Shown here: piece after piece, positions 1 through 64,000 of the stretch
Position numbering within the stretch: position 1 is the stretch's first letter
Layout of the letters: each line of letters begins with the position of its first letter
From: Gyrodactylus bullatarudis
Lineage: Eukaryota > Platyhelminthes > Monogenea > Gyrodactylidea > Gyrodactylidae
Direction: 5' to 3'
Assembly: GCA_012064415.1 (NCBI GenBank)
Contig: SSNU01000792.1
Location: 1-64,000 of the forward strand
Length of the DNA stretch: 64,000 bases
Translations under genes and position numbers: made by a program
Notes under the pieces: generated by a model
Database searches by the model: none
Told to the model about the DNA's origin: nothing
The model's input: the letters and a program-made list of their open reading frames with translations, nothing else

Positions 1-379
1 TTGCATTTCTTCATCAGTTGGTATCATATCATCTGTAAGACCAACCTAGAGAAAGGAATAGTTTTTGAGGACTTCAACTTACGATTTCTTCTGGAGGTGG
101 TTTCTCAGTTGGTACAGGATCAGCAATCGAGACTAATTCATTGAAAGAATCTTCATCTAGACCACTGAGGTAATCTTCCTTAATCAAAATAGTTAAACAT
201 CATTAGACATTGAACCTGAACAAGTATGAATAATTTCGCAAATATAGTTACTTTTATTTAAGTATTTAGTAAATACTATTTACCATGTGTACTGTATTTC
301 ATCAACTTACAAAATCATCGTTCCCCACTATAATTTGAGAAAATATGCATAGGGCACAGAAAAACAAAAATAGTTTCAT
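1..379 (-). CDS. Secreted acidic protein, 5' portion (runs off left edge)
   Basis: Three minus-strand exons are visible: 379-311, 178-83 and 45-1, all joined in phase 0. Exon 1 encodes a signal peptide (MKLFLFFCALCIFSQ, then IIVGNDDF). Exon 2 encodes an acidic stretch containing EDYLSGLDEDSF and a proline/glutamate patch, and exon 3 continues VGLTDDMIPTDEEMQ to the edge. Both donors are GTAAGT; the acceptors are TTAAG and CTCTAG. The introns are 132 nt (179-310) and 37 nt (46-82). A TATAAAA match on the minus strand at 407-414 lies close to the ATG. I do not recognise the family. The mature part seen is acidic with no cysteine. The protein probably enters the secretory pathway; its function is unknown and the C terminus lies outside the window. 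Confidence 0.7.
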
Positions 380-39400: not shown

Positions 39401-42400
39401 GTTAATAACTTTCTAACTGTACGACGTATATATGTAGATGAACAAAGTTTATGTTGGTAATTGTGATTGTTTCCTATTCAGTCAGTAGAAGTTGCTTATT
39501 GCTAGAAAATTCTGACATAAATTGTTTCTCGAGTGTAAAAGTTTGCTGGAGTATCTTTCTCCTACATGAAACTAACCCAGCAGTATCAGAGTCCTTGACG
39601 TTTGGGTCACACTCGCTCAAGCTAACCAGACTGAATTGAGAAGAAACGAGTATATAGATGAGAAATATTCGTTCTTTGACTATAAGCCTCTAGAGAAGAT
39701 CTCTCCTTAGACTATTTTTAACGACATTCAATCTAGCATTCACATACTAACCATTTCTCTTTTGCATCTGAAAAAATTAGATTTGGATCGCTTAAATCAT
39801 TTCAGTTGATCAATTTTATATCTCTCTCTCTCTCTCTCTCTTGCATGAAACTAAGCCAGCTGAAGCCCTGGAAAAAATTGAAATTAAATAAATCGTATGA
39901 ATTTCTGTGTAAAAAAATCAAAATGTGAATTTTACTCTCTCCCCATACCTTCTGTGTTTAACGAAGTGTTTTAATCATATAACATATTGATTACCGGAAA
40001 TGTCTGTGATAAAGCATATATCTATAATCTCCCTCTATTTTCCGATAGAACTATCAAGACTAGTAGGCATTGTTTCATGCTATAGAGCATGTCTTTTCGT
40101 TGAACTCTCACTACGTAATTACTAGGAATGTAACGAATTTTTACCTTTTTTAAAATCAAATTTTTCCGTGAAATTTTCGCTTATAACTTTGGTAACAATG
40201 ATGTGTGAGATCTAAAATAACTGAAAATTCCTTTGCAATCCCATGCATAATCGTGCATTGCCTATTTCCCCTAAATTCTCTTGTGCACTTGAAGCCTTAT
40301 CAGCAAAAAAGACATTCGAAATTTTAGTGAAAAAATAGTTAAAACTCATTGATTGTAGTGTATCAGCCCACGGTGCTTCTTCTTCATGATCTTTCCAAGT
40401 TCCTTTGGACCTGTAAATGGTATAAGATTGCGAGCAACAATGATCTTTCTCCATGAATCAGACAGGGCTTGAAGGTTTCCCAATAAGAAGAGAAAATTTC
40501 GAGCCCCAAGATTGTTTGTATATCTAATCGTTGATTTTGTATCTAAAACTAACTAGTTTCGATTCACGCTTTACCCTGAGATATTTACTGATACAAGAAA
40601 AATAAAGGGAATCAAGTTCTTTAGTATACATTCTGTGTGGTTGAAAGACTACTTTTGATATGTTGCTAGAATCTTTATGAGAATTACCTATTTCAAAATC
40701 GAATGGTACCTGTTTTACTTTTTTTCTGAGCTAAACCCTTGTCAGATAAATGATCATATTATCTCTTTATTTGATTCAGACTGTTTCTAAAGCGTTCTGA
40801 GAGTTTTTGATTAATCCAACAAAAATTCTAAGCTTGAAAGCCTCTATAACTTGAGTAAAACACTTCTCTTATCACATAGAGAGAAAGATTATGATTTGCG
40901 TTGTGACTTCCATTATTAATATTTGAAAAATTAGAAAAAAGATATATATTAGGGCCATATGTACATTTCACAAAGCATCATCAGTGGCAATACTTTAAAA
41001 ATGATAAAAGTTAAGAATTCATTAAAATAATATTTTACAAATTATGAAAGAAATAGTAAATGTCAAAGAAGAATATAATGTAAGCTCAAAAAACACCAAA
41101 ACTCTCCAAAAAGTAGCAACAGTGGAGAGAAAAGTGAAAAAGCTCACATAGGCCAAGGTAGTTGAAGATTATACGAATAGTTTTTTTGAACACATAAGTT
41201 TGGTTTATATCTATTTATGAAGAATTTCTCCTTCACCCAAACGTCTGTACTGTCATCCCCTGCATTTTTGTATAAAATAGAAAAGTTTGAGATTGAAGCT
41301 TCATGCCCTTCCTGTCTTAGATGCCTGGTCACCGCTGTGTCTTTCTTAAGATGATCGTTCCCTCTAGTTGACAGCTTCCTAATTGTACGTCCTATATAAG
41401 AAGATCCGCAGTCACATTGGAATTTATAAATCAATAGAGTTTTTTCTTCAGGTTTCAGTAAATCTTTATGAATTAGGTTAAACAATCTCTGAGTTTTAAA
41501 TACAATTTTCAATTGTATGTTGTTATAATGTTGATTGATGAGATCAGTTAACTTTCTCATTAAATCATTACTAAAACCATCTCCTTTGAAATTAAGTTTC
41601 ATGAAAATTTTGGTCTTCTCCACTTCATCTGTGTTTTCAACGACATCTCTATCATCTGACAAGTTGATAAATTTGTCCACAAATTTATTAGGATAACCGT
41701 TTTCCAATAAACTCGACTTCATGTTCTCTATTTCTTTAGGTATTTCCTCTGGACTTGCTATCCTTCTTATCCTCTTTCCTAGGCCAATTACTAAACCCAC
41801 TTTATGTGAAACAGGACTAAAACTGGCATAATGGAGATATTTACCATTGTCAGTCTTTTTCTTGAAAATGTTTCTTTGAATTGAACCATCTTCTTTCCTA
41901 GTCAGTTTCACATCTAGGAAGCTTAAAATATCATTAGATTCTTTTTCCATGGTAAACTTTATATTTGGATGAACAGAGTTCATCTTTAAGAAAAAATCAT
42001 CCGATGATACGTTAGGTTTCATCAAAATAAAAGTGTCATCGACATATCTGATGTAAACATCAGTAAAAGAATTTATTGTTTCAGACATTTTATTTAGTTC
42101 TAACCAGCCTAAGAAGATATCAGCTAAAAGAGGACTAAGAGGTGAACCCATAGCTATCCCATCTTTTTGGATGAAAACTTTGTTTTGAAATGATAGAGGA
42201 ACATTTATACAACAGATCCTTATAAGGTCTGTTATTTCTTTACTCTGCATTTCAAAACCACCCTGTTCATCGACAAAAGAACTGATAATAGTAAGGGTTT
42301 CTTCTATTGGTACATTAGGAAATAAAGAACTAACATCTAATGAAATCATCTCTTTTGAACCTATGTTTAAATTCTTAATTTTATCAACAAATGAAAAAGT

Positions 42401-45400
42401 ATCCTTAACAACATATTTAGCATAGTATTCATGTATTGGTTTTAAAATATCTATCAACCATTTAGCTAAATTATGTTGTGGACATGACGACATGTCCAAG
42501 ATCGGCCGGATTGGGAAAATCTCAGGAACAATCCCATCAGTTATCTTATGTGTTTTTGGATGTAGATATAATCTAGACATCCCAGTATGTTTCTTAGTTA
42601 TGAAATTCCTAGTTCTATCAGAAATTATATTTCTGTCAAATAGTCCCTTAGCTATTTTATTCATGGAACGTTCCATGGATTCCATTTGTTTAGTATATGA
42701 AAATCTATCTTGCCCAGTGCTATGAAATTTACTCTCATCAGAGAGGAAATCTAACCCTGCCTTATACTAATCATCCTTATACATAATTACTATCCCTTTA
42801 CCCTTGTCAGGTTTTGTTAAGAATATGTTTTCATTAGATTTAAGTTCTTTTAGTGCTACAAAATGTTTCTTAGAAAGTAAACTAGATTTTAAAGGTTTAC
42901 GATCAAAACTTCTATAGATAGACAACAGATCAAGTTTGAACTTCTCTGTATTTGAGTCGTCCTTCCGATTGTTAGTTAAACCCAGTTCATAGACTAGACG
43001 TTCAAAGGCTGCTTTATCTTCAATTTCATTTTTACGTTTGGGGATACAAAAATTATTAATATAGTCAGAAATTCCGAGAGTTGATCGGCGAAATTAATTC
43101 TACAGTTAGTCAGCTGGAAATATTATTTTCGACAATAGGACTTGACATATTTATCATTTGACTTGAATTAGTTACTCAAAATCTGTCACAATTCACGCAG
43201 ACTTATCTATCAAGATTCAAGAAAGTTTCCATCACCATAACTACAGAGGATGTTGTAGTCCTGAGGAAGAAACAGAAAACTTACTCTCTCTAATCCCTGC
43301 TGCCCAGGAAGATTCTTTAATTATTTTTTCACTGAATATATATAAAGAGATTGAATAATTCATTATACCTTTTTCTCAAGCAATCTATCTTTTTTTAACT
43401 AACAGAATAATAACACTGATTCCATGGAAGGTAAACTAATAAAATGATACCAAAAGTCCCCCACCACCTAATATGATTACTAATTATAGGACATCTTCCA
43501 TGTCCTTCTCTATTACATGATTCATTGTTCAAATCTTATTGGTCAAGGAAATTAATGTCTTTTCATTGGCTGACTATAATGTTATACACACACAATTCGA
43601 GTATAGATTACTAATTAATTGATCGTCTTTAGCAGTATTATTATTATCATCATACATGCAACAATTTGTTATTAATTCTTGTTATTCTCTGTAGATAAGG
43701 AAGGATTCCCACTGGATGAGAACAGCCAAATACCTGACTTGAAAACAACCAACCTTCAGAATTCCTCGCCCTCTGGGTTAGCCTCAACTTCAGAAAGGAT
43801 GAAAACTATTCTTGAAGTGAGTACTCATTAGTTTGTGGATGTGCGCAGTTTTACATCCTAAATTTGAGCCATAAAAATTAAAAGCCATAACTATTTATAA
43901 TTGTTTTATAATGAAGAAATCATTGTAAGGATTTAGAATTAAAAGGGTATTTTACGATATTTGACGATGTATACTACCAAAGATGTATACTTGGATTATT
44001 TCCAAATGCTCTCAGAATTTCAGAAGTACTAGACAGGATCCATTTGTAAGCTGTAACATTCTGAGACATGGGTTAATCCATTATCAGATAAGACATGGAA
44101 TGAAATAATTCTAGATAATCTATATGACAGATATAAAATCTTCTGATTGGTTTAATCAGATTTGAGCACATGAAAGGGCCTAATTTTGGCCAGACTGAAT
44201 TTCCCTCTTCGTGTCAACAAACTTTAAGTAGTAAATGTTTATTTTGGCTTACAAGACTCCTACAATTACTGAAAATTGAGCTGAGATCATTCATTCTGAT
44301 AGAATTTCGAACCCAAAGGGTACAAATCTGAATAAAACTCCCGATCTTAGTCCCTCTGAATATGAATGATCGAATGTTTGCTTTTCTAATTTATCTACTC
44401 TCATGCCCCATTCCAATCGAGACATAAATTCACTACAGTATTATTCATTGAATCTGAATTAAGCAACTGTAGATGTGTTTTGCTACCATTTCCCATAAAC
44501 TTTTCCATGGTTACATTTTAACTCATCCTCTTTTAGATGTTAGATGATGTAACTTTTCTTAACATATTAAAAATATATCCACTACTAGCACCCCCCCTCT
44601 CTTATATATATACAAGAATGTAGTGAGAAATACAAACCAAGAGTTATAAATTATCCTGTACGCATAAAACTCTCTATTCTCATATCAAGATCATGGAGTA
44701 TCCCATTTCTCTCTATTCCCATCATATTATGTAATTCACATTGTTATTTGAGTCTGTTTTATCAGAAATAATGGAGGCTATCGATTTACAACTGACTATT
44801 TTTCAATCTCTCGAATAGCCTGCCCCAGTTTACCTGTCCCGTTCAGCATTCTCTAAGCAACTTTAGTTATTTTAATTTTCTCTTTTTCTCAGCATGTAAA
44901 AAATAAACTCAATTTTTACATAAAATTTGAAATACTGCAAAAACCTTTTAAAAGTACATCAGAAAAAAACCCGAAGCTATGTAGTTTTGTAGAAAATAAA
45001 TGGTTTGTTTTTTAGTCACCAAAATGAGATCACTAGAGTTGAAAAGGATATTAAGATGTGATAATGATATGACTTTTCCCCATTGAAACAACTCATCAAT
45101 CTTTGGCTGTTACTTTTTTACAACTTTTAGGAACTCTCCCTCTTTTTTTCCAACTACCCACATCATCAAAAAAAGTGAAGGGGGGAAGTTAAAGAAAGTC
45201 AACTCTGTATCTTTTTCTCTCTATCATGCTTATTTCAGTCTGTCCCAAATGACAAATGATTTGGCCAGGAGAAAAATATATAGATGAATTGCTTTCCAAT
45301 CAAGGAAAAGGGAGAAGAGAATTTGCATAATCTTCTTCTATTGATATTTATTTGTCTGACTTAATTAAAGAATCTCCCCTTCTCACTACCCAGTCTTCTT

Positions 45401-51400: not shown

Positions 51401-54400
51401 CAAAAATATTTATCTGCTAAACATTTCTCCTCAAAAAAATAATAGTAAAATTTTGATTGTTTAAACATTTGAAATTTTATTGCTAGGCTGTATGTAGCAT
51501 GCAAATCGCTAATGGTAAATTTTGAGAAAAAATTGATCCAAATTCTGGAAATAAAACATCTTTTTTTTCATTTAATCCAGGAAATTGGATTTCTTCTATT
51601 ACTAACAGTAGCTTAAGATTATTTCATGTACTTTTCTCCTGGTCAGTCATACATTTCTTCTTTTCAAAGAGTTCAAAGAGCTCAGAATCGAACATTTCAT
51701 CCATAGTTTGTTGTTAATCCCCTTGTAATGTTTCACTATATTTTTTTTGAACGTGCGTTGGAAATTGTTTCTAAAATCCTCGTGCCAAATGAATTATTAC
51801 ATTTCAATATAGATTCAGAAATAACAAGGAGTGAATGTAAAGAAAATGCTATTAATTTTGTTTTGAATAGGGTTCCTCTTGAACAGACACATTGCCGACT
51901 TGATCAACTTATCTCTCTGAGTTTTGATCTTGACAATTAACATCTATTGTAAATTAGGGATTGGTTTTTCAATTCCACATAATATGTTCAATTTCATTTT
52001 CTTTTATTTTTTCCCTCTAATTTTCATTCAAATGTCATATTTGATCCATTTAAGGCTTATTTCCCTAATACTATATTAGGAAAGTGATTGGGAGAAAAAT
52101 ATTTTAGCTTCTATCATGGCCAAAATTAAATTTCAGTAAATTTTCCATCATGTTAATTCTAGTACAAAATCATTGTTTCTTTTGCAACCAGTTCATTAAT
52201 GAATAGATTTCAGACCATATTTTTCATACTTCATTCAAATTCTCTTGAGGAGCCCATCCAGATTCTGACCCAGGCTAGAAATCGAAAATTTGTAAAATGA
52301 TGATCTCTAATATATATAGGTTATACTGATAATTCGCAATTTAAATACGAATTTAAATTTAAATTCCCCATAGAATAACTAAAGTAAAATTTGATCAAAA
52401 CCCAAGAACCAGAACTAGACCAAAGCGCTTTTACTCTAAAACTGTTGTGAAAACAATCATTCTTTGAAGATTTTTTCCTGAATTCTATACTAATTTTTAT
52501 AATTAAATCTGTTTTATGATATGTTTTAACATTTTGTGTCAAAGATATTTATTCTATTCGTATTATTTATTGGATTCGTATTGGTAGAAATACTGCATTC
52601 TAAAATAAATATTTATTTCAGACCTCTCCTCTACCTTGGAATGAAGATATTCTCACGATTCGATATTTGCAATTTCCTAAAATGCTCCCAACTCACTGCT
52701 AACCACTGGTTGACTTTGATGGAGCAAAATTATCACTCATCAAATTCTTACCACAATAGCACGCATGCAGCTGATGTTATGCAAAGCTGTGCCTATCTCC
52801 TACAGAAAGAATCACTCAGTGTGAGCTGCCCTTGAAACTATAGATTGATGAATACTATAGCTTATATTCGAACTTTGTATTACAAAATTATGACCGGAAC
52901 ACATATTTCATATACAATTCAAGATAACTAAAGTTGGTTGATATGAAGTTGGGAATCTATGATTTTTACAGAAATCTCGATATTTTCATCAAGAATTCGA
53001 TTTTGTTAAAGATTTTCTGGAATCCTACTCATGCTGCCCACTTTTACCATATGAAGAAAAAAAATCCCATTTTTTCGAACTTTGAGCTGAAAATTTTTGT
53101 TGATTTGAAAGTGGGAGGCTGATCGAAAGAGTTTTTTCAGGATCAAGATCATTTTTGCTTGGTAATAGATAAACTAGGGTGATCCAAAATCATTTAAAAA
53201 TGACGGGTTTTTTCAAAAAAATGAATAAAAGTAAATATTTTCTTTGTCTGATGATGATCCTGAAAAATAACGTTTGATTCCTCTCAGACCTTGAAATCAA
53301 CAAAAATTTTCAACTCAAAGTTTGAAAAAAATTTAAAAATCGCACCAACTCGAAATTTAAATGTCTCCAAATAGATAAACTGTATTATGAGTTTTCTACC
53401 ACAACTGTTCTATGATGGAAAAAATAATTTATTAACTTGGATGTAAAATAGACTCAACTTATGAAAACTTATGAGTAATTTTCTTTTCAAGGACTCGATG
53501 ACACAAGAAGACATTGCTGCAACCATCCTAGCAGCAATCATACACGATGTGGACCATCCCGGAAAGACAAACCAGTTCCTCGTTATAACAAAGCATGAAC
53601 TGGCCATATTATATAACGACATGTAGGTCCCTCTGATTCATGTCCATGTACATAATTCCTATTAATGATTTCCACCCTTAGAGCTGTCCTGGAACATCAC
53701 CATGCATCGTATGCGTTCAAGCTAACCCTGGAGAATAGTGTTTGCAACATCTTTTCAAATTTGGACAAGTTTGTTTACTCATTTTTATTTTAAAACATGC
53801 CTCTCACTACTACGCTTGTATTCATTCTTATCAAGTCACCTGATTATAGTTAAGTTGTTTACAATTCTCTTGATTACTTTTCCATTGCCTCTATTAGGCT
53901 AATGGGAAATCAAGATAAACCAAATCTCTAAAAACTACCATACACTTTTTTCCATGCAAGTTTTTATAGTTATTACCAGGGCAGCAAAATGTCTATTAAT
54001 GCTCATAGTTTTGATCGTTTTCTCTAATCACATCTACACAAGTCTAAATGGCTTTTCTATAAAATACATTCGTTTAAGGAAAAATTCTTTTCCAGAACAA
54101 GCCTTACTCTTCAAAATTTCAGGCTCAAGTATTCGTGTTTTTATAGGAATTAGAATTTTTACAGCCTTTTAATAATTACATTTTAATTCCAGTGACAGCT
54201 TCAAATCCCTCAGGAGTCAAATGATCAACTTGGTACTAGCAACAGAATTATCCGTTCACAATAACCATTTGAGTCAGTTTATCTCAGTCCTATCTCAGCA
54301 AATGATTGCCAGACATTCGGTAAGTTACCATAATTACTAACATTTTTATGTATTCTCCATTCCTGTTTTATTCATTCGATTCTATGGTTTTTCCCCCACC

Positions 54401-56377: not shown

Positions 56378-56821
56378 ATGACAGGTACCAGTCGAAGATA
56401 TCGAGATAACGATGAGTCCTATCTGGAACTCAGAGCTAGGAATAATGTCGCTGTGAAAAAGAGCAGAGAAAAAGCTCGTACTAGAAATATAGAACTGGCT
56501 CGAAAGTAAGTCAGAATATGCTTACTTATGGAAATGTGTAGTTTAGAAGAATTGCGAAAGGAAAATACCAATATTAAGACAAAATTATCAGAAAAATATA
56601 GGGAATTATCCTTGCTGAGTTGTCTTCTGCAAAAGGTGAATGTAGAGCCACCGCCAAGACTAACTAATGCAATCAACTATCTAAACAAGCAAGAAAACGC
56701 TGGGCTAATTAATCAAATTAATCTAATCAACAGAAATCAGGAAAAGTATTCTTCAAACTTCGAGAAAGAGCTTCGCCAAATAACTAACCTCCAAGTAGAA
56801 CAATTAGGATTATTGAACTGA
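56378..56821 (+). CDS. C/EBP-like bZIP transcription factor (135 aa)
   Basis: Exon 1 is 56378-56505 and exon 2 is 56542-56821, joined across a 36-nt intron (GTAAGT ... TGTAG). Without splicing the frame ends at a TAA in the donor. The basic region is RARNNVAVKKSREKARTRN (residues 19-37), close to the C/EBP consensus RNNIAVRKSRDKAK. The zipper follows directly with heptad residues L44, N51, L58, L65 and L72; the Asn in the second heptad favours dimers. The C-terminal tail (VEPPPRLTNAINYL onward) is not recognised. The ATG at 56378 is the first Met after an in-frame TGA at 56330, though an upstream exon cannot be excluded. An AATAAA at 56829 follows the stop closely. There is no activation domain, as in the short C/EBP-gamma type. 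It is likely a nuclear DNA-binding dimer partner. Confidence 0.75.
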
Positions 56822-56828
56822 GATTTTT

Positions 56829-56834
56829 AATAAA
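56829..56834 (+). terminator. Poly(A) signal of the bZIP gene
   Basis: AATAAA beginning 8 nt after the stop codon. Confidence 0.6.
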
Positions 56835-57389
56835 GATATATTTTATAGATAAAAAGCGAAATTCATGAAAAAAAAACTTAGTTAGTCACAGATGAGCGAT
56901 AAGGGTGAATGTTTCGCAAGCTACACGAATACTCGAGAAAGATATTTATTATTTCATATATCTACTCAGCAGTAGTTACGAGATTTAATGTAATTATGGG
57001 TCATTGAAAAATCTGTGATTCAGAATTATCGAGTTGAAAAAATTCGATTTTCTAAATTAATCGTCCATATACTTACAAGTAATTTTGTGATTATTTCCCT
57101 TTAATGCGCGGAATCATATGTTTCTGTGTTAAATATCTTTGTAATCTCCTGTTTACTTGAAAGTAGATATGGGATATAAAATATTTTTTCACTCAAATTT
57201 CCTCTGGTGGTCTGAATCACGAATTTTAGAAATTCTCTCGATGCGTATTAGTTATCGCGTTTTCTTTAAATTCCTATCTACTTTAAAGTAGTTTCTATAC
57301 TAAACACAAGTGACTTAGACTAGATCTACTATTCCTATTTGTTTAAATAAAATTCAGTAACAAGTATATTAGGAAGTTAAATTAAATTT
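56835..57389. other. Spacer between convergent bZIP and DDX18 genes
   Basis: About 550 bp of AT-rich sequence with no recognised feature. Confidence 0.5.
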
Positions 57390-57399
57390 TTTATTTATT
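57390..57399 (-). terminator. Poly(A) signals overlapping the DDX18 stop codon
   Basis: On the minus strand the sequence reads AAATAAATAAA. One AATAAA includes the stop codon TAA and another begins within it, so the 3' UTR may be only about 20 nt long. Confidence 0.5.
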
Positions 57400-59019
57400 T
57401 AATTTTCCTATAGATTTTTGCCTTTTTCAATTTTTCCTGATCCATATTGTGGGGCAGGTATCGTTTCAATGCTTTCTCATTCTTCTTCGAGTAATTAACG
57501 TTAAGATCAACTTTTGGGATTTCAGTCAATCCACAAGTACGGGCAGCTGCTGCCAAGTCGAGTTGGGCTACATTAAAACACTCGGTCAGGGTATGCGATG
57601 CATAGGTGCGGACCATACCCTTGAAAGCTTCTTGTGCACTACTAGCAAGGTAATAGTTAGTTGATATCAGCTTCTCTAGAGCGGGTTGAGCATCAATCAT
57701 TTTACTCTGGGCTATTTCGAATTCAACCTAAAATGCATTCAAAATATAAGGAATTTGTGGACTGAATTTAATCTAATGTGCCTTACAAGTTTAACTTTGG
57801 CCTTTTTCAAAATGTCGAGAAAGTCCATTTCATGAGGCCTAAGGACAAGGAGGGAATTTCCTTCACTGCCAGCTCTCGCTGTGCGACCAACACGATGGAT
57901 ATATTCCTTTGCGTCATCTGGAGGATCATATTGAAGTATCCAATCAACTTTTGGGATATCCAAGCCTCGAGCTCCAACATCAGTACACAAAAGGGTTGCA
58001 ACATCATCCTTACAAAACTGAAGAAACGTGGTAGTTCTCTTGGATTGCTTTTGACGTCCGTGGATGGCCAAGACTGGCATATCAATGTAATTCAAAAGTT
58101 CATAATAGAATTTAACTTCCATACACGATGACATGAATACCATGTTTTTCTTGTCTTTATTCTTCTTGAGAAATGTGTAGAGAAGACAAAACTTTCTCTC
58201 TGGACTGCAGACGACGTAGCCCTGTTCAAGACCATCAACTGTAGCTTCATTGCAGTCATCATCAACACCGATCATCATGCAGTCTGCTTTCAGAGCAGAC
58301 TTCGCCAGGGCTCTTGTCTTATCATTGATTGTGGCAGAGAACAAGAGTGTTTGACGAGTCTTGGGAATCAACTTGAGGATTTGTTGCATCTCCAATTCAA
58401 AACCAATGTCAAGCATTCTATCAGCTTCATCAACAACTAACATCTTTAGGTTGTGTATAATGATGCTATCTGAATTAGACAAGTGATCTAAAAGACGACC
58501 CGGTGTAGCTACAAGGATGGTAACACCTTTTTCAAGATTTTGAGTTTCTGACTGACGATTGTTTCCTCCCATAATAAGACCTGTTCTGATCTTTGTAAAC
58601 TGAATCAATTCACGTAAGACACCATACGTTTGTATGGATAATTCGCGAGTTGGTGAAATAACTATGGCACCAGTTCCATTGTGAGGCTGAAGGTTGAGGC
58701 GTAAAACATTATTTACAAGTGGAATCAGGAAAGCGAGAGTCTTTCCCGAACCAGTTTTAGCGGAAGCCATAAGATCATGTCCCTTGAGCGCATAAGGAAT
58801 AGCAGAATGCTGAATTTTGGTCATTTTCTTCAATTCCATTGCTTCGAGAGCTTTTATGATTTCTGGTCTAAGCTCAAGCTTGGAAAATTCTTCAGGACAC
58901 TCGGGTAAAATTTCATTTTCAGGAGCTTCTTGAATTTCTTTATTTGTGGTTTGCTGTTTATTATGCAGCTGATTCAACTTCTTCTTTAACTTTTTCTGAC
59001 CAGAGTATTGCTTCGGCAT
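57395..59019 (-). CDS. DDX18: DEAD-box RNA helicase DDX18/Has1 (521 aa)
   Basis: Exon 1 is 59019-57787 and exon 2 is 57727-57395, with a 59-nt intron (57728-57786) joined in phase 0. A Lys-rich N terminus precedes the helicase core: Q-motif region MTKIQHSAIPYA (66-77), Walker A AKTGSGKT (87-94), PTREL (123-127), TPGR, DEAD (197-200), SAT (228-230), ARGLDIP and HRVGRTAR (375-382). The stretches GLEQGYVVC, LLNYIDMPVLAIHG and DWILQYDPPDD, and the C-terminal LEKLISTNYYLASSAQEAFK to YASHTL segment, identify the DDX18/Has1/Pitchoune branch. These proteins act in the nucleolus in pre-60S ribosome assembly. Its length resembles yeast Has1. A Gly replaces the usual first Ala of DVAARG. It shares a promoter with PQBP1. 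Confidence 0.93.
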
Positions 59020-59115
59020 ACTAATATTTCAAATTATCACTAATACCAAACAAAAAACAGTGGTAAGCTTTTCAAAGTTTTTGCGAATTTTTCTTGTGAG
59101 TAATCAAATTTTCAA
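59020..59115. promoter_or_regulatory. Bidirectional promoter between DDX18 and PQBP1
   Basis: The two start codons point away from each other and are separated by 96 bp. No TATA box is obvious. Both genes are RNA-processing housekeeping genes, so co-regulation is plausible. Confidence 0.5.
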
Positions 59116-59866
59116 ATGGGATTACCAAAGGCTCTTTTGGAGAGACTTAATAAAAGGGGTTTGGTGCCTAAGCAAGAGTCTAAGGGTAATAATTATTCTT
59201 ATAATCTTGATAGACGAGGAAATTTTTGCGGAGGATTACGATGAAACCAACGCCATAACTGTGAAAAACACCAAAAGTAATGCCAACGAAATTGACAAAT
59301 ACAGTGATTGTTTGATAAGAGAAACTGCAAATTGTCCTAAAATAGACAATCCATACCACAACTGTACATCCTCTTGCTTTGAAGAATTCGGACAATTAAA
59401 GTTTAAGCCTGATGCAAAGGTGAACAAGTTGAGAGATAGAATGTTGAAAAAGTATCCTCTTCCAGCTAACTGGGTTGAGGTAGGTGATCCCAAGACAAAT
59501 AGATTCTTCTACTGGAATTTGGTCAATGACGATGTCTGTTGGTTGTCTCCAATTCATCCACGAGCCCAAATCACAAGGCCATCTGATCAGATTAAAGAGA
59601 TGTATTTGAAGAATCATCAACTAAGAGAATCTGAACAAGATATTGATGAAAGGAACTTTGATGAGGATCGAAGAAAAGCGAGTAGAAGAAGACGCAGATC
59701 ATCTAGCCGAGGTTCCTCTTCCAGCAGAGAATCGAGGCACAGTATTTCGCGAGAGCGTCGTAGACGCCGAAGAAGATCTGATTCTGATGAAAATAGGTAT
59801 GCTAGAAGACGTTCATTGTCTCGAACTCCCAGTTCAAGGAGTCGCTCTCATTCAAGAAGTCCCTGA
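59116..59866 (+). CDS. PQBP1: Polyglutamine-binding protein 1 homologue (240 aa)
   Basis: Exon 1 (59116-59185) encodes MGLPKALLERLNKRGLVPK, like the PQBP1 N terminus. Exon 2 (59214-59866) starts DEEIFAEDYD, the conserved acidic EEIIAEDYD block. The 28-nt intron 59186-59213 (GTAATA ... TGATAG) must be removed, because the exon 1 frame otherwise stops. A Cys motif follows (CPKIDNPYHNCTSSC, 64-78), then a WW domain (about 104-138: YPLPANWVEV, RFFYWN, CWLSPIHP; Trp110 and Trp133). The C terminus is an Arg/Ser-rich tail (SRRRRRSSSRGSSSS onward) ending SRSRSHSRSP. The long vertebrate polar repeats and the C-terminal spliceosome-binding segment are absent or replaced. A role in nuclear pre-mRNA splicing and transcription is expected. 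An AATAAA begins 2 nt past the stop. Confidence 0.85.
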
Positions 59867-59867
59867 T

Positions 59868-59873
59868 AATAAA
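59868..59873 (+). terminator. Poly(A) signal of PQBP1
   Basis: AATAAA starting 2 nt after the TGA stop codon. Confidence 0.6.
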
Positions 59874-60253
59874 TCTTGTTGGGTTTTTTTGTAAATATAT
59901 ATATATTAATAACATAATTTCATATTTTTCTTAAAGATTCTTGCTTGCTACACACAGTAAGTTAATAATAATCTGTAAACAGTAGTGTAAAAAGAATTTG
60001 CAAAAATCAAAACATTTGATCATTTGAAGGGAAATTTTGAATAAGGAAGTGGGTCAGAAATTTCCAATTAGTATTAATATAAATCAAAATAACTAAATTT
60101 TTTCAGTTTTTCTCGGAGACACGCATCTTGGTAAAAATAAATGAGAATACAAGAAAAAAATCATTGAATAACGTTTTCGTCATTGTTAATAAAAGAGGGG
60201 GCGAACAGGAGAGAGATGAATAATTTACGAGTTTACTAAGAATATCAACAGAG
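59874..60253. other. Spacer between convergent PQBP1 and DRP1 genes
   Basis: About 380 bp, presumably containing the DRP1 3' UTR. A short TA repeat (about 59895-59906) is the only structure noticed. No canonical minus-strand AATAAA was spotted. Confidence 0.45.
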
Positions 60254-62554
60254 TTACCAAAGATTCGTTTCCCTAATTTCACTAATAATCTGTGAGGCAC
60301 GATTGAGAGCCTTGAGCATTTCAGCGGCTTCCTTCCTCCTTTGGGCGACATGGACGCTTTCTTTGAGAAGCTGGTTGTACTCCTCTTGTTTATAGAGTTT
60401 TGAGACTAATTCACTTTGCAAGTTGTCCTTGACAAAATTGACTAGAAAATGCATGATGGCTTTCGGGACAGAATCCTGAATATTTTTGCGTACAATGTTG
60501 AAATAAGACTTGATGAGTTGCTTGATGATTTGGCAATCCCGCTCTTCACTTTCAGTCAACTTGTGTTGATACGCTTCAGTTTGCTAAACATAACACATTA
60601 AAGATGATAATTGATTATTTTTAAAAGTGAATATTTATATCAAAATTACTATGTCTCCGTGAAGGTTTAGTGACTGCACTGGAAGATCATTAGCAGAGTT
60701 TGAATTGTTCGAGTCGGGTCTTTCGATAGGTTCATTCATGATTCTGCGAGATGGAGGTTTATGTTCCTAAAGAGAATACAAAGAGAAAACATTGAAAGAC
60801 TGAATAAAGGTCAAGGCTGTAATGTAGATAATGTAATAAAACTAAAATGATAATACAGGAGAAAGAACAAAATTGCATACAGTACTAGTCTTCTTCAGGG
60901 AATTGCGTAGAGGTAGAATGCACTAAGTAGAGCGTATGAGTTAATGTTTAATCTAAGTGATGAATAAGAGAGGGGGGAAATAACTCACCTCAGCTCTGGA
61001 CTGATGGTATTTGTGAATGGTCCTGGCTTCAGTAAAGTCAGGATGCTTGGTATTTACATAGGCTAATTCGATGGAAATCAGATTAGTGACCATTTGATTG
61101 GTGGGCTGAAGGCGTAGTCTCAGCAGAGAAGTGATGACATCATTAATTCGTTCATAGATATTTGGGAAGCGAAACATTTCTTGTTGGGTTCCACAGTGCT
61201 GGACAATTCTCTGCATTTCTTCGTGAACCAATTCGACACAGCGGAGGCTAGGCTCTTCTAGACGATGAATTTGCCTTTTGACTAGCAGCTCAAAACTGAC
61301 TTCTGGAACAAAAAGGGCTGGTCTTGGGCCTGTTGCATTACGAATGGCAGTGAGAACATCGAGTGTCGATAGTCCACCCAAGGGATCGATAGAGTTCAGG
61401 GTTTCTGAAAATAGTGAATGAAAGATGTAGCATATTCTAGCACCTCCGCATAACTCAGTGGTGCCGATATCTCTAGCGGTACCATCAATTGTATTACAAT
61501 AAGAAGTATTGAACTTGGTGATTATTTGCAATAAAAGTTGACCCTTGTCCTCAATTTCTTCACCAAATGTGTTGAGAAGTGTTTGAAATTGAGCTGCCAT
61601 CACATTGACTCTTGTTTTGAGATCAGGAAGACAATCTCTTATGTGATGCATGAGAAGACGATTGAGGGTTTTGGCAAGATAATTTGTACCGTTTCTTGAT
61701 GCCAAAGATGGATATCTTCGTTGTAGAAAAGATGACTCATCTTTAAGAGCATCTTCGATACTTTTCTTTGAGTTGATATCTTCTTGAGCCCGATTGACGA
61801 CTCCAATGATTCCCAATTTAACAGGAATAACACGACCCGTCAAGAGTTCATGAGCATCGGTACCCCTATCCATTAAATCCAACTTGGTCAAAACACACAA
61901 AGTTCTACGACCGGTTGGATCGACTTTCTTGGCCAATTTTATTGCTTCACTAGTGGCCATGTCAGCATTAGCTGGTGTAACAGCAAGAATAATACTATTG
62001 GGATTATCAATAAATTTTCTGCACAATTCATTGATCTGCTGTTCAATATCCTCGGGCTGGTCTGCGAGTGGGACTTTGGTGATTCCTGGAAGATCAACCA
62101 GGGTCAAATTGAGGACATGAGGACTAAATACTTTAAGATGAATAGCTTCAGCAGATACAGACTTTCCAGAGCCAGCCACACGGTCTGTTTCAACTTCAAT
62201 TTCTCTGCGAACTTCGGCAAAATCAGTGAAAATTTTGCCTTTCACATGTAGAAATTTGGCCCATTCTTTTGATTGGCCATCTCCTTCACTATTCTTTGTA
62301 TCTGTATCATCTTCTGGTACATGAACAAGTTGAAGAATCAGTGGACGACGAGTAACGATGCCAGTACCACGAGGTAAAAAGTCTTTGCCAACTAAATTTT
62401 CAAGAACTGAACTCTTTCCTGAACTCTAGAAAATAAGTGAGAGAAGACAAACCTGTGTTCCGAGGACAACTATTTGTGGAAGTTGAATAGAATCACAACC
62501 AACTGTCGAAAATACATCTTGAAGCTTATTAAGAATGGGTATCAGAGATTCCAT
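60254..62554 (-). CDS. DNM1L: Dynamin-related protein 1, mitochondrial/peroxisomal fission GTPase (661 aa)
   Basis: Exons: 62554-62453, 62425-60989, 60766-60650 and 60583-60254; introns 27, 222 and 66 nt, all phase 0. It begins [15 protein letters not shown] like animal DRP1. GTPase motifs: G1 GTQSSGKS (32-39, split by the 27-nt intron after Gln34), G2 T59 in [10 protein letters not shown]3 DLPG (145-148), G4 TKLD (214-217). Middle-domain signatures include [31 protein letters not shown] and [18 protein letters not shown]. The GTPase effector domain is complete ([18 protein letters not shown], then DMVPK-type and MLKAL motifs) and ends [10 protein letters not shown]. The protein is about 75 residues shorter than human DRP1 because the variable domain is reduced to a Ser/Asn-rich linker. 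It assembles on mitochondria and peroxisomes to drive fission. Confidence 0.93.
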
Positions 62555-62991
62555 TGAAAAATGTTTTGAAAATGCGCTAAAATATAAACAAAACTGCTAA
62601 GTGAATAACCCAATTTTAAATGGAAAAGTTTAAATGTTAACGAGAACTTTTTATGAAATAAAATTTATTATTTAATAAATTGAAATCAGGTAAAAAGATC
62701 TATCTCTAGCCTCCAAAGAATCGTTGGAGTGATTGGATCTTTAGTTTACTTTTAAAAGGTAATGCTTATTCGAAAGAAATAGTGTTTTCGTTATTCATTA
62801 ACTGTATCTATAATTTAGCCAATAAAAATGAGACTATGTGCAGTAATGATATGTATTTATAAAAATAACATAGTAGTATCGCCTAATTCAATAAAAGATA
62901 CTTCAATCTATAGCTTTCATATTCTAACCATCATTTTTATATTTCGTCTTTTATCAGATCAGTGTTGAAAGCCTGAGGTAGGCTTATAGCT
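62555..62991. promoter_or_regulatory. Divergent upstream region of DRP1 and the semaphorin gene
   Basis: 437 bp between two start codons pointing apart. It is AT-rich, with no repeat or exon recognised. It presumably carries both promoters. Confidence 0.35.
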
Positions 62992-64000
62992 ATGAGCTCG
63001 TGGTTGCTCTGTGCAAGAAGAATTATTTTTATTGCCGTTCTCATTACAAGACTACAAACAATTGATGCACTAGAAGACCCATATCACAGTATTAATTTTG
63101 ACGGTAACTCAGTTTATTTACAAAACACAGATCTCGTTAAACAGAGTCCCCATGCGGATTATCACCAAGAGTGGCTGGACTTTAAGACCCAGATTCTCAC
63201 ACCATTTAACTTATCAGTGCAGGGTATTCTTCACAAGGATGAAATTCTTTTAATATCTCTTAGGTAATTTTTACTTACTTTTATTGCACCTACAGTGATG
63301 GGAAATTACTGAGAGTAAACGTAAATTCATTCCAGATAGAGGAGATTTTCGTCAAGTCTCTTACTGCCCAAGAATCATATGAATGTTCAATGGAATTAGC
63401 CAAGACTCGTGATAGTGATCGATTCAAAGGGGTATGAAATTTATTTATTTATTTTCAAGTATGCCTGCAAGACTCATCTAATAACGAGCATGGACTTTTA
63501 CTCGGAGAGCCTGGTGAATGTTTGTTTTACCAATCTCCTTCAATGTCATTGCTACATAAGGAATTTGTACCGACTATCTCTGGAGGAAAAGATAACTCAT
63601 TGGAGTTCACATGACTGCTATGGGGAGTACCCTGGAGTGTTTTCAATCAAAACGTATCCTAGTGACCAGAGTCTGGGAATTTCAAGGCTCTTGGCCAGTC
63701 TAAACATGAATCGAGACTTTTTCAATTCCCCAAGTAAACCATGGTTTTTCAAAATCCTTCCATTTCTTTCTAGGGAAGGTGGAATTTTTGCAAATTTTCC
63801 ATCATCAAAATTCTAGATATTTATTATTCGAGGAGGAGCGTTACAAGGAGGAAGAGAAGAAACAAGCATGCAAAGACGGTGATGATCAAGTGAAAACTTT
63901 TAGGCTGGCCAGAATTTGCACGAGAAACTTGGATGGTGACTATGCCGGGGAGGACGCTGGGAAATTGGTGGACTTTGAAAAGATTACGATTACCTGTCCA
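62992..64000 (+). CDS. Divergent semaphorin, N-terminal part (runs off right edge)
   Basis: Exons: 62992-63263, 63296-63431, 63460-63733 and 63774-64000 (continuing). The introns are 32, 28 and 40 nt, and phases agree. A signal peptide (ARRIIFIAVLITRLQTIDAL) leads into a Sema-type beta-propeller: GILHKDEILLISLSDGKLLR resembles the first blade; YECSMELAK, a spacer and VNVCFTNLLQCHCYI match the family's C-x-NYIRVL ... LYVCGTNAF-x-P-x-C-x-YI; HDCYGEYPGVFSI matches its C-PYDP region; RYLLFEEERYKEEEK and FRLARICTRNLDGDY, then FEKITITC, match YFFFxE and SRVARVCKND.GG ... W-x-TF-KA-L-C. Cysteine spacing is kept while most other residues differ. It would be a secreted or membrane guidance ligand for plexins. 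Which class cannot be told without the C terminus. Confidence 0.65.

Follow-up and report, generated by a model that had tools for sequence, protein, structure and literature searches.

The first 64,000 bases of contig SSNU01000792.1 (C347; 296,804 bases) of the Gyrodactylus bullatarudis assembly GCA_012064415.1 (77.3 Mb in 471 contigs), hereafter the window, contain seven segments of 27 to 40 nt, each starting with GT and finishing with AG when read on the sense strand, that an initial annotation had proposed as introns, on the grounds that recognisable proteins stay in frame only when these segments are removed. Direct reading of the DNA confirmed the coordinates, the lengths, and the ends of all seven. 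We consider it very probable that these segments are true spliceosomal microintrons of the U2 type in a gyrodactylid monogenean, belonging to a short-intron class known across flatworms, and we infer from the coding sequence that they are excised in RNA. The identity of the host was assessed from the mitochondrial COX1 gene of the assembly, which reads cleanly with genetic code 9 (12 internal TGA codons under the standard code) and, among the matches listed, shares 89% identity with the representative sequence of a 90% cluster of 68 members that carries the name Gyrodactylus albolacustris; the next matches in that list were Macrogyrodactylus, Cichlidarus, and Paragyrodactylus records at 83-84%, with others at ∼71% or less. 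Because of this reading and this identity, the host is placed by its sequence as a gyrodactylid monogenean, a flatworm.

Seven microintrons in the window

The 27-nt segment at 62426..62452 (minus strand) interrupts the P-loop codons of a DNM1L-type dynamin gene, for which a four-exon DNM1L-like (DRP1) model containing this intron and two longer ones was built at 60254..62554 (minus strand). With the 27 nt excised, the predicted protein aligned without a gap across a 12-residue stretch to dynamin-1-like protein from the PDB (956 bits overall), and retention inserts nine codons that include an in-frame TAG stop. The Pfam Dynamin_N match scored 181.7 bits for the spliced form versus 169.1 bits for the retained form. 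Comparable results were obtained for the 36-nt segment at 56506..56541 (plus strand), within the bZIP domain of a C/EBP-like gene: its excision yielded a 64-residue alignment to C/EBP beta without gaps (39 bits), and the bZIP_2 match ended at profile position 49 when spliced versus position 33 when retained. The 28-nt segment at 59186..59213 (plus strand, phase 1; flanking exon scores of 4.6 and 35.7) lies in a PQBP1-like gene (59117..59869, plus strand) with a weak, below cut-off WW match and an RS-rich tail. The conserved N-terminus and the EE..AEDYD motif of this protein occupy different frames on either side of the segment, so that the predicted frame change is well supported by homology; the exact splice base is not fixed because the linker between these two elements varies in length across the three homologues found. 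A comparison of the PQBP1-like protein with the PDB gave no match.

The other four segments were assigned by reading frame and coding score. Three of them are located on the plus strand in the 5' part of a semaphorin/TSP1-type gene (62992..64000, plus strand) that continues beyond the end of the window and was recognised by a Pfam TSP_1 match and the gene finder described below, along with a weak Sema match below the cut-off: 32 nt at 63264..63295 (phase 2), 28 nt at 63432..63459 (phase 0), and 40 nt at 63734..63773 (phase 1). The fourth, 37 nt at 46..82 (minus strand, phase 0), is in a gene truncated by the contig start. Excision in each case keeps the frames open, with coding scores on both sides. 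The spliced semaphorin-like protein had no homologue at E ≤ 0.001 among 7994 candidates scored. Past the window end, the same gene has a further short intron of 38 nt and one whose length may be either 32 or 20 nt. The proposed need for excision was thus backed by homology for the dynamin and C/EBP segments and, for the frame only, for the PQBP1-like segment; in the remaining four it is suggested by frame and coding score.

Distribution among genes and lengths

Similar introns were found on other contigs. A kinesin gene on C126 has introns of 28, 28, and 29 nt, one of which splits the P-loop exactly between GQT and GSGKT. Excision of both 28-nt introns gave a single Kinesin match of 181.9 bits, and the region around the 29-nt intron scored 133.9 bits when spliced versus 21.2 bits when retained. 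In a KIF5-type kinesin on C360, a 31-nt intron precedes SKTNLSVHED, and a single Kinesin match of 137.3 bits was obtained once it was spliced out. These kinesin pieces were picked for their short-looking gaps and are therefore a biased sample. A cytochrome b5-like gene next to the U12 small nuclear RNA (snRNA) gene contains introns of 32 nt and of 38 or 32 nt, the domain scoring 65.0 or 62.8 bits for the spliced alternatives and giving no match when the introns were retained. The suggestion that unrelated genes share this class was upheld: with dynamin, C/EBP, PQBP1-like, kinesin, and cytochrome b5-like genes as examples, its predicted presence in unrelated genes on several contigs is well supported. 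Some genes carry several such introns, the semaphorin/TSP1-type gene having three within 510 nt and the C126 kinesin likewise three (counts without statistics).

Chance occurrence was evaluated with a home-made gene finder that places a flat prior on intron lengths of 15-250 nt. The 209 kb scanned consisted of the window, the next 20 kb, and 125 kb drawn from a further 14 contigs. With GT-AG ends, the program called 19 introns of 23-40 nt, a few of them in transposon-like frames, and none of 15-22 or 41-50 nt, versus 7, 6, 8, 3, 4, and 5 introns of 23-40 nt for six decoy end pairs in the same DNA. When splice-site models were included and both exons were required to score above 4, 12 GT-AG microintrons were called versus 2, 0, 4, 1, 2, and 2 for the decoys, a result that is partly circular because the site models had been trained on 21 of the same introns. 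All of these counts are approximate, since the program fuses adjacent genes and failed to call the 27-nt intron of the dynamin gene. The set of 21 introns read individually omits the 38-or-32-nt intron of the cytochrome b5-like gene and a possible 30-nt intron in the same gene; calls of 24 to 63 nt at three loci (L014, L015, and L016) were excluded by eye as transposon-like or weak, and low-scoring calls of 33 and 34 nt at a further locus (L009) were also excluded. Removal of three introns of ambiguous length (32/20, 26/35, and 36/54 nt) left 18 unambiguous microintrons, which span 26-40 nt with a median of 31.5 nt; three of the 18 are multiples of three.

An estimate of lengths over the full range was derived from 57 junctions, taken as gaps between adjacent protein matches in the Kinesin, Myosin_head, Cpn60_TCP1, and HSP70 families. 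Six junctions were of 25-40 nt (four of the 57 estimates were below 30 nt), none of 41-48 nt, 17 of 49-70 nt (median 59), and 34 of at least 82 nt, with four of these last within 71-100 nt and 30 above 100 nt. In part of this count, neighbouring matches were excluded if the distance between them exceeded 12 positions or their overlap exceeded 25; the TCP1 and HSP70 gaps were derived by hand, one of them (115) spanning an overlap of 28. Such estimates can err, as one hand estimate of 37 nt became 31 nt when read, and they miss introns that are multiples of three, which appear as one match with internal stops or, when stop-free, are invisible. The count also omits the second copy of a myosin gene on C163. 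This gene is present as two inverted copies ∼7 kb apart (C163:68653-71756, minus strand, and 78853-81956, plus strand) whose match scores and profile coordinates are the same. For 13 introns chosen without regard to gap length (eight from the window contig and five from two random contigs), the median was 34 nt with a bootstrap interval of 28-37 nt; the second class had a median of 59 nt (55-65), and 10 of the 16 gene-finder calls of 49-70 nt were retained. On these sequence-based estimates, a description of intron lengths as two short classes (25-40 and 49-70 nt) plus a long tail, with the ultra-short class a minority, is well supported. The bimodal distribution suggested initially therefore holds in that an ultra-short class exists beside long introns, but the 57 junctions fall into three groups rather than two.

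The window also contains members of the second short class. One 59-nt intron is located at 57728..57786 (minus strand; exon scores of 83 and 20) in a DEAD-box helicase gene that is presumably DDX47-like, and another was called by the gene finder at 53623..53681 (plus strand; exon scores of 11.8 and 6.3) in a PDE8-like gene. The earlier identification of the latter as PDE8 was borne out, the best chain for a downstream exon being PDE8A (E = 7.6e-33). Elsewhere in the window, a reverse-transcriptase-like frame with a GIY-YIG-like end (41251-42685, minus strand) resembles, we assume, a Penelope-type element. Beyond the window, transposase-like frames on the minus strand at C347:67440-68584 (L003) and C347:78557-79503 (L004) presumably resemble PiggyBac-type and Tc1/mariner-type transposases, respectively.

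These lengths bear on the possibility of genome-wide shrinkage to introns of nearly uniform size, ∼27 nt, as in dicyemids. The introns of Dicyema sp. have a median of 27 bp, with about two thirds under 30 (PMC6543705), and those of D. japonicum average 38 bp (PMC6736024). The shortest introns described here equal the 27-bp median of Dicyema sp., so that the two animals share the same lower lengths. In the present genome, however, the microintrons make up a minority, alongside introns of 49-70 nt and others that are hundreds to thousands of nt long; only 6 of the 57 junctions were at or below 40 nt (by a method that undercounts introns that are multiples of three), and 34 were at least 82 nt. 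We regard dicyemid-like shrinkage as highly improbable.

Splice signals and a proposed route of excision

The donors of the 21 microintrons are GTAAG/T-like, with A at +3 in 90% and A at +4 in 76% (GT and AG being present by construction), and 86% of the acceptors show T at -5, the same share having T or C at -3. The U12 donor consensus is [AG]TATCCTT, and C at +5 as in U12-type donors was found in none of the 21. As judged from their sequence, the donor and acceptor preferences are U2-type. The segments had been described as strongly T/A-rich; their A+T content does reach 65-86%, but five of the seven window segments are at 65-72%, no richer than the 62-72% of the window. What distinguishes them is an excess of T over A (194 versus 129) and of C over G (62 versus 26) on the sense strand, as counted in the cores of the 18 unambiguous microintrons, and not the level of A+T. 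Sequencing or assembly errors that shift the frame, or gene decay, could in principle mimic introns of this size. The near-consensus donors, the sense-strand bias toward T and C, and the smaller numbers of introns obtained with decoy ends all argue against such mimicry, as does the occurrence of GT and AG at ends set by homology, the probability that both fall at a given position of coding sequence being ∼0.0025 per junction; we judge this explanation very unlikely.

Several splicing components are encoded in the assembly. U1 snRNA is represented by two tandem genes ∼570 bases apart (L019 and L020, C9:19011-19728), U2 snRNA occurs at three places, and U12 snRNA has one gene (L021, C252:369199-369356), given which the minor spliceosome seems to be retained. 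U2AF65, the large subunit of U2AF, is a single 502-residue open frame (C344:30782-32164) whose matched part is intronless. An SPF45/RBM17 homologue is encoded on C185, where the UHM (L024, C185:606290-606580, minus strand) matched splicing factor 45 from the PDB with 124 bits and a G-patch is encoded on that strand ∼1.8 kb farther upstream (C185:608336-608458), an arrangement that we take to be the SPF45/RBM17 layout.

The most likely mechanism would be ordinary U2-type splicing in which donor and acceptor are recognised jointly, as a pair spanning the intron (intron definition). Base pairing would involve U1 at the donor, which is close to consensus, and U2 at a degenerate branch site, probably situated 6-14 nt ahead of the AG. 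In introns too short to accommodate a full polypyrimidine tract, an SPF45-type factor may replace U2AF; this step is the least certain and is proposed by analogy, because a human short-intron subset has been described that is spliced with SPF45/RBM17 in place of U2AF, with a model intron of 56 nt and a truncated pyrimidine tract (PMC8363638). The two systems have in common short introns and an encoded SPF45, any dependence on which would here be by analogy, and they differ in that no truncated tract was seen in the present introns. The lower limit near 26 nt may be set by how far apart the donor, the branch A, and the acceptor must be for the spliceosome to act.

Several observations weigh against this interpretation. 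A branch-point consensus, which the initial annotation had recommended looking for, did not emerge: YTNAY was present in 16 of the 21 introns versus 15.4 in shuffled sequences, showing no enrichment, and TNAY, CTNAY, and [CT]TAA[CT] in the same introns were likewise not above shuffles. For the SPF45 step, the C+T fraction of the last 13 bases before the AG was 0.69 in the microintrons, no poorer than in introns of 49-110 nt (0.58) or longer (0.59), both of these values coming from unverified gene-finder calls. The longest pyrimidine run was 5.7 in the microintrons versus 5.5 in the longer, equally unverified introns, and neither loss nor truncation of the polypyrimidine tract was seen in this comparison. 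In addition, four of the seven window introns (32, 28, 40, and 37 nt) are without homology support, and the lengths of three of the introns read are ambiguous, as listed above. The latter points agree with an alternative in which some of the called microintrons belong to longer introns or are spliced at adjacent sites, the shortest lengths being artefacts of the choice of GT and AG near a frame change; the semaphorin-type junctions have no homology anchor, and for the cytochrome b5-like gene either 38 or 32 nt fits the domain. A single domain match nevertheless spans each junction in the dynamin, the C/EBP, and two kinesin genes (27, 36, 28, 28, 29, and 31 nt), and we consider this alternative unlikely. 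The extreme shortness of the segments and their lack of a detectable branch-point consensus would also suit non-spliceosomal excision by a tRNA-type or XBP1-type endonuclease and ligase, if the segments were too short for a spliceosome. Donor and acceptor preferences that remain ordinary beyond the selected GT and AG speak against such a route, and it appears exceedingly improbable.

Relation to other short introns and significance

Microintrons such as those of this worm are not a new phenomenon, because microintrons have already been published for flatworms, including tapeworms, G. salaris, and a liver fluke. Tapeworm short introns peak at ∼36 and 73 bp, a feature also present in Gyrodactylus salaris (PMC5036155), and those of the liver fluke Opisthorchis felineus peak at 37 and 90 bp, with microintrons in other flatworms too (PMC6530080). 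The O. felineus microintrons are clustered in genes, are biased toward the 5' end, have sites nearer the consensus, often lose the polypyrimidine tract, and lack a unique motif (PMC6530080). In three Gyrodactylus species, assembly sizes are 67-91 Mb and introns average 353-773 bp (PMC12677651). Our search, which covered few subscription papers, found only PMC5036155 on short introns of Gyrodactylus. The present introns resemble the flatworm microintrons described there in phylum, in having two short classes beside long introns, in their canonical ends, in occurring several per gene, and in the lack of a special motif. Unlike those (PMC6530080, PMC5036155), they have a tail extending to 26-28 nt and a second class with a median of 59 nt, below 73 nt, the comparison being with the tapeworm value (PMC5036155). 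A more distant parallel is Stentor, which also has tiny AU-rich introns without a strong branch-point consensus, although these are uniformly 15-16 nt and belong to a ciliate (PMC9505925). That the microintrons are a clear new example of a known flatworm trait, with lengths among the shortest in animals, is well supported.

The first class is compatible with the 36-nt peak, from which its median of 34 nt (interval 28-37) is not distinguishable, and the tail down to 26-28 nt and the second class near 59 nt are modest, possibly new details. A bolder and rather doubtful reading is that both flatworm short classes have been re-set downward in this lineage, to ∼28-34 and ∼59 nt versus ∼36 and 73 nt, with a floor near 26 nt. 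If true, the classes would be discrete spliceosome-compatible geometries that shrink together, not fixed lengths. For annotation, a high minimum intron size breaks such genes, as remarked for Clonorchis (PMC6530080). This compact animal genome combines introns of 26-40 nt with others of hundreds to thousands of nt, apparently handled by one spliceosome, and encodes both U2AF65 and SPF45; it would thus provide a natural test bed for the minimum spacing of donor, branch, and acceptor in animals and for the use of SPF45 versus U2AF.

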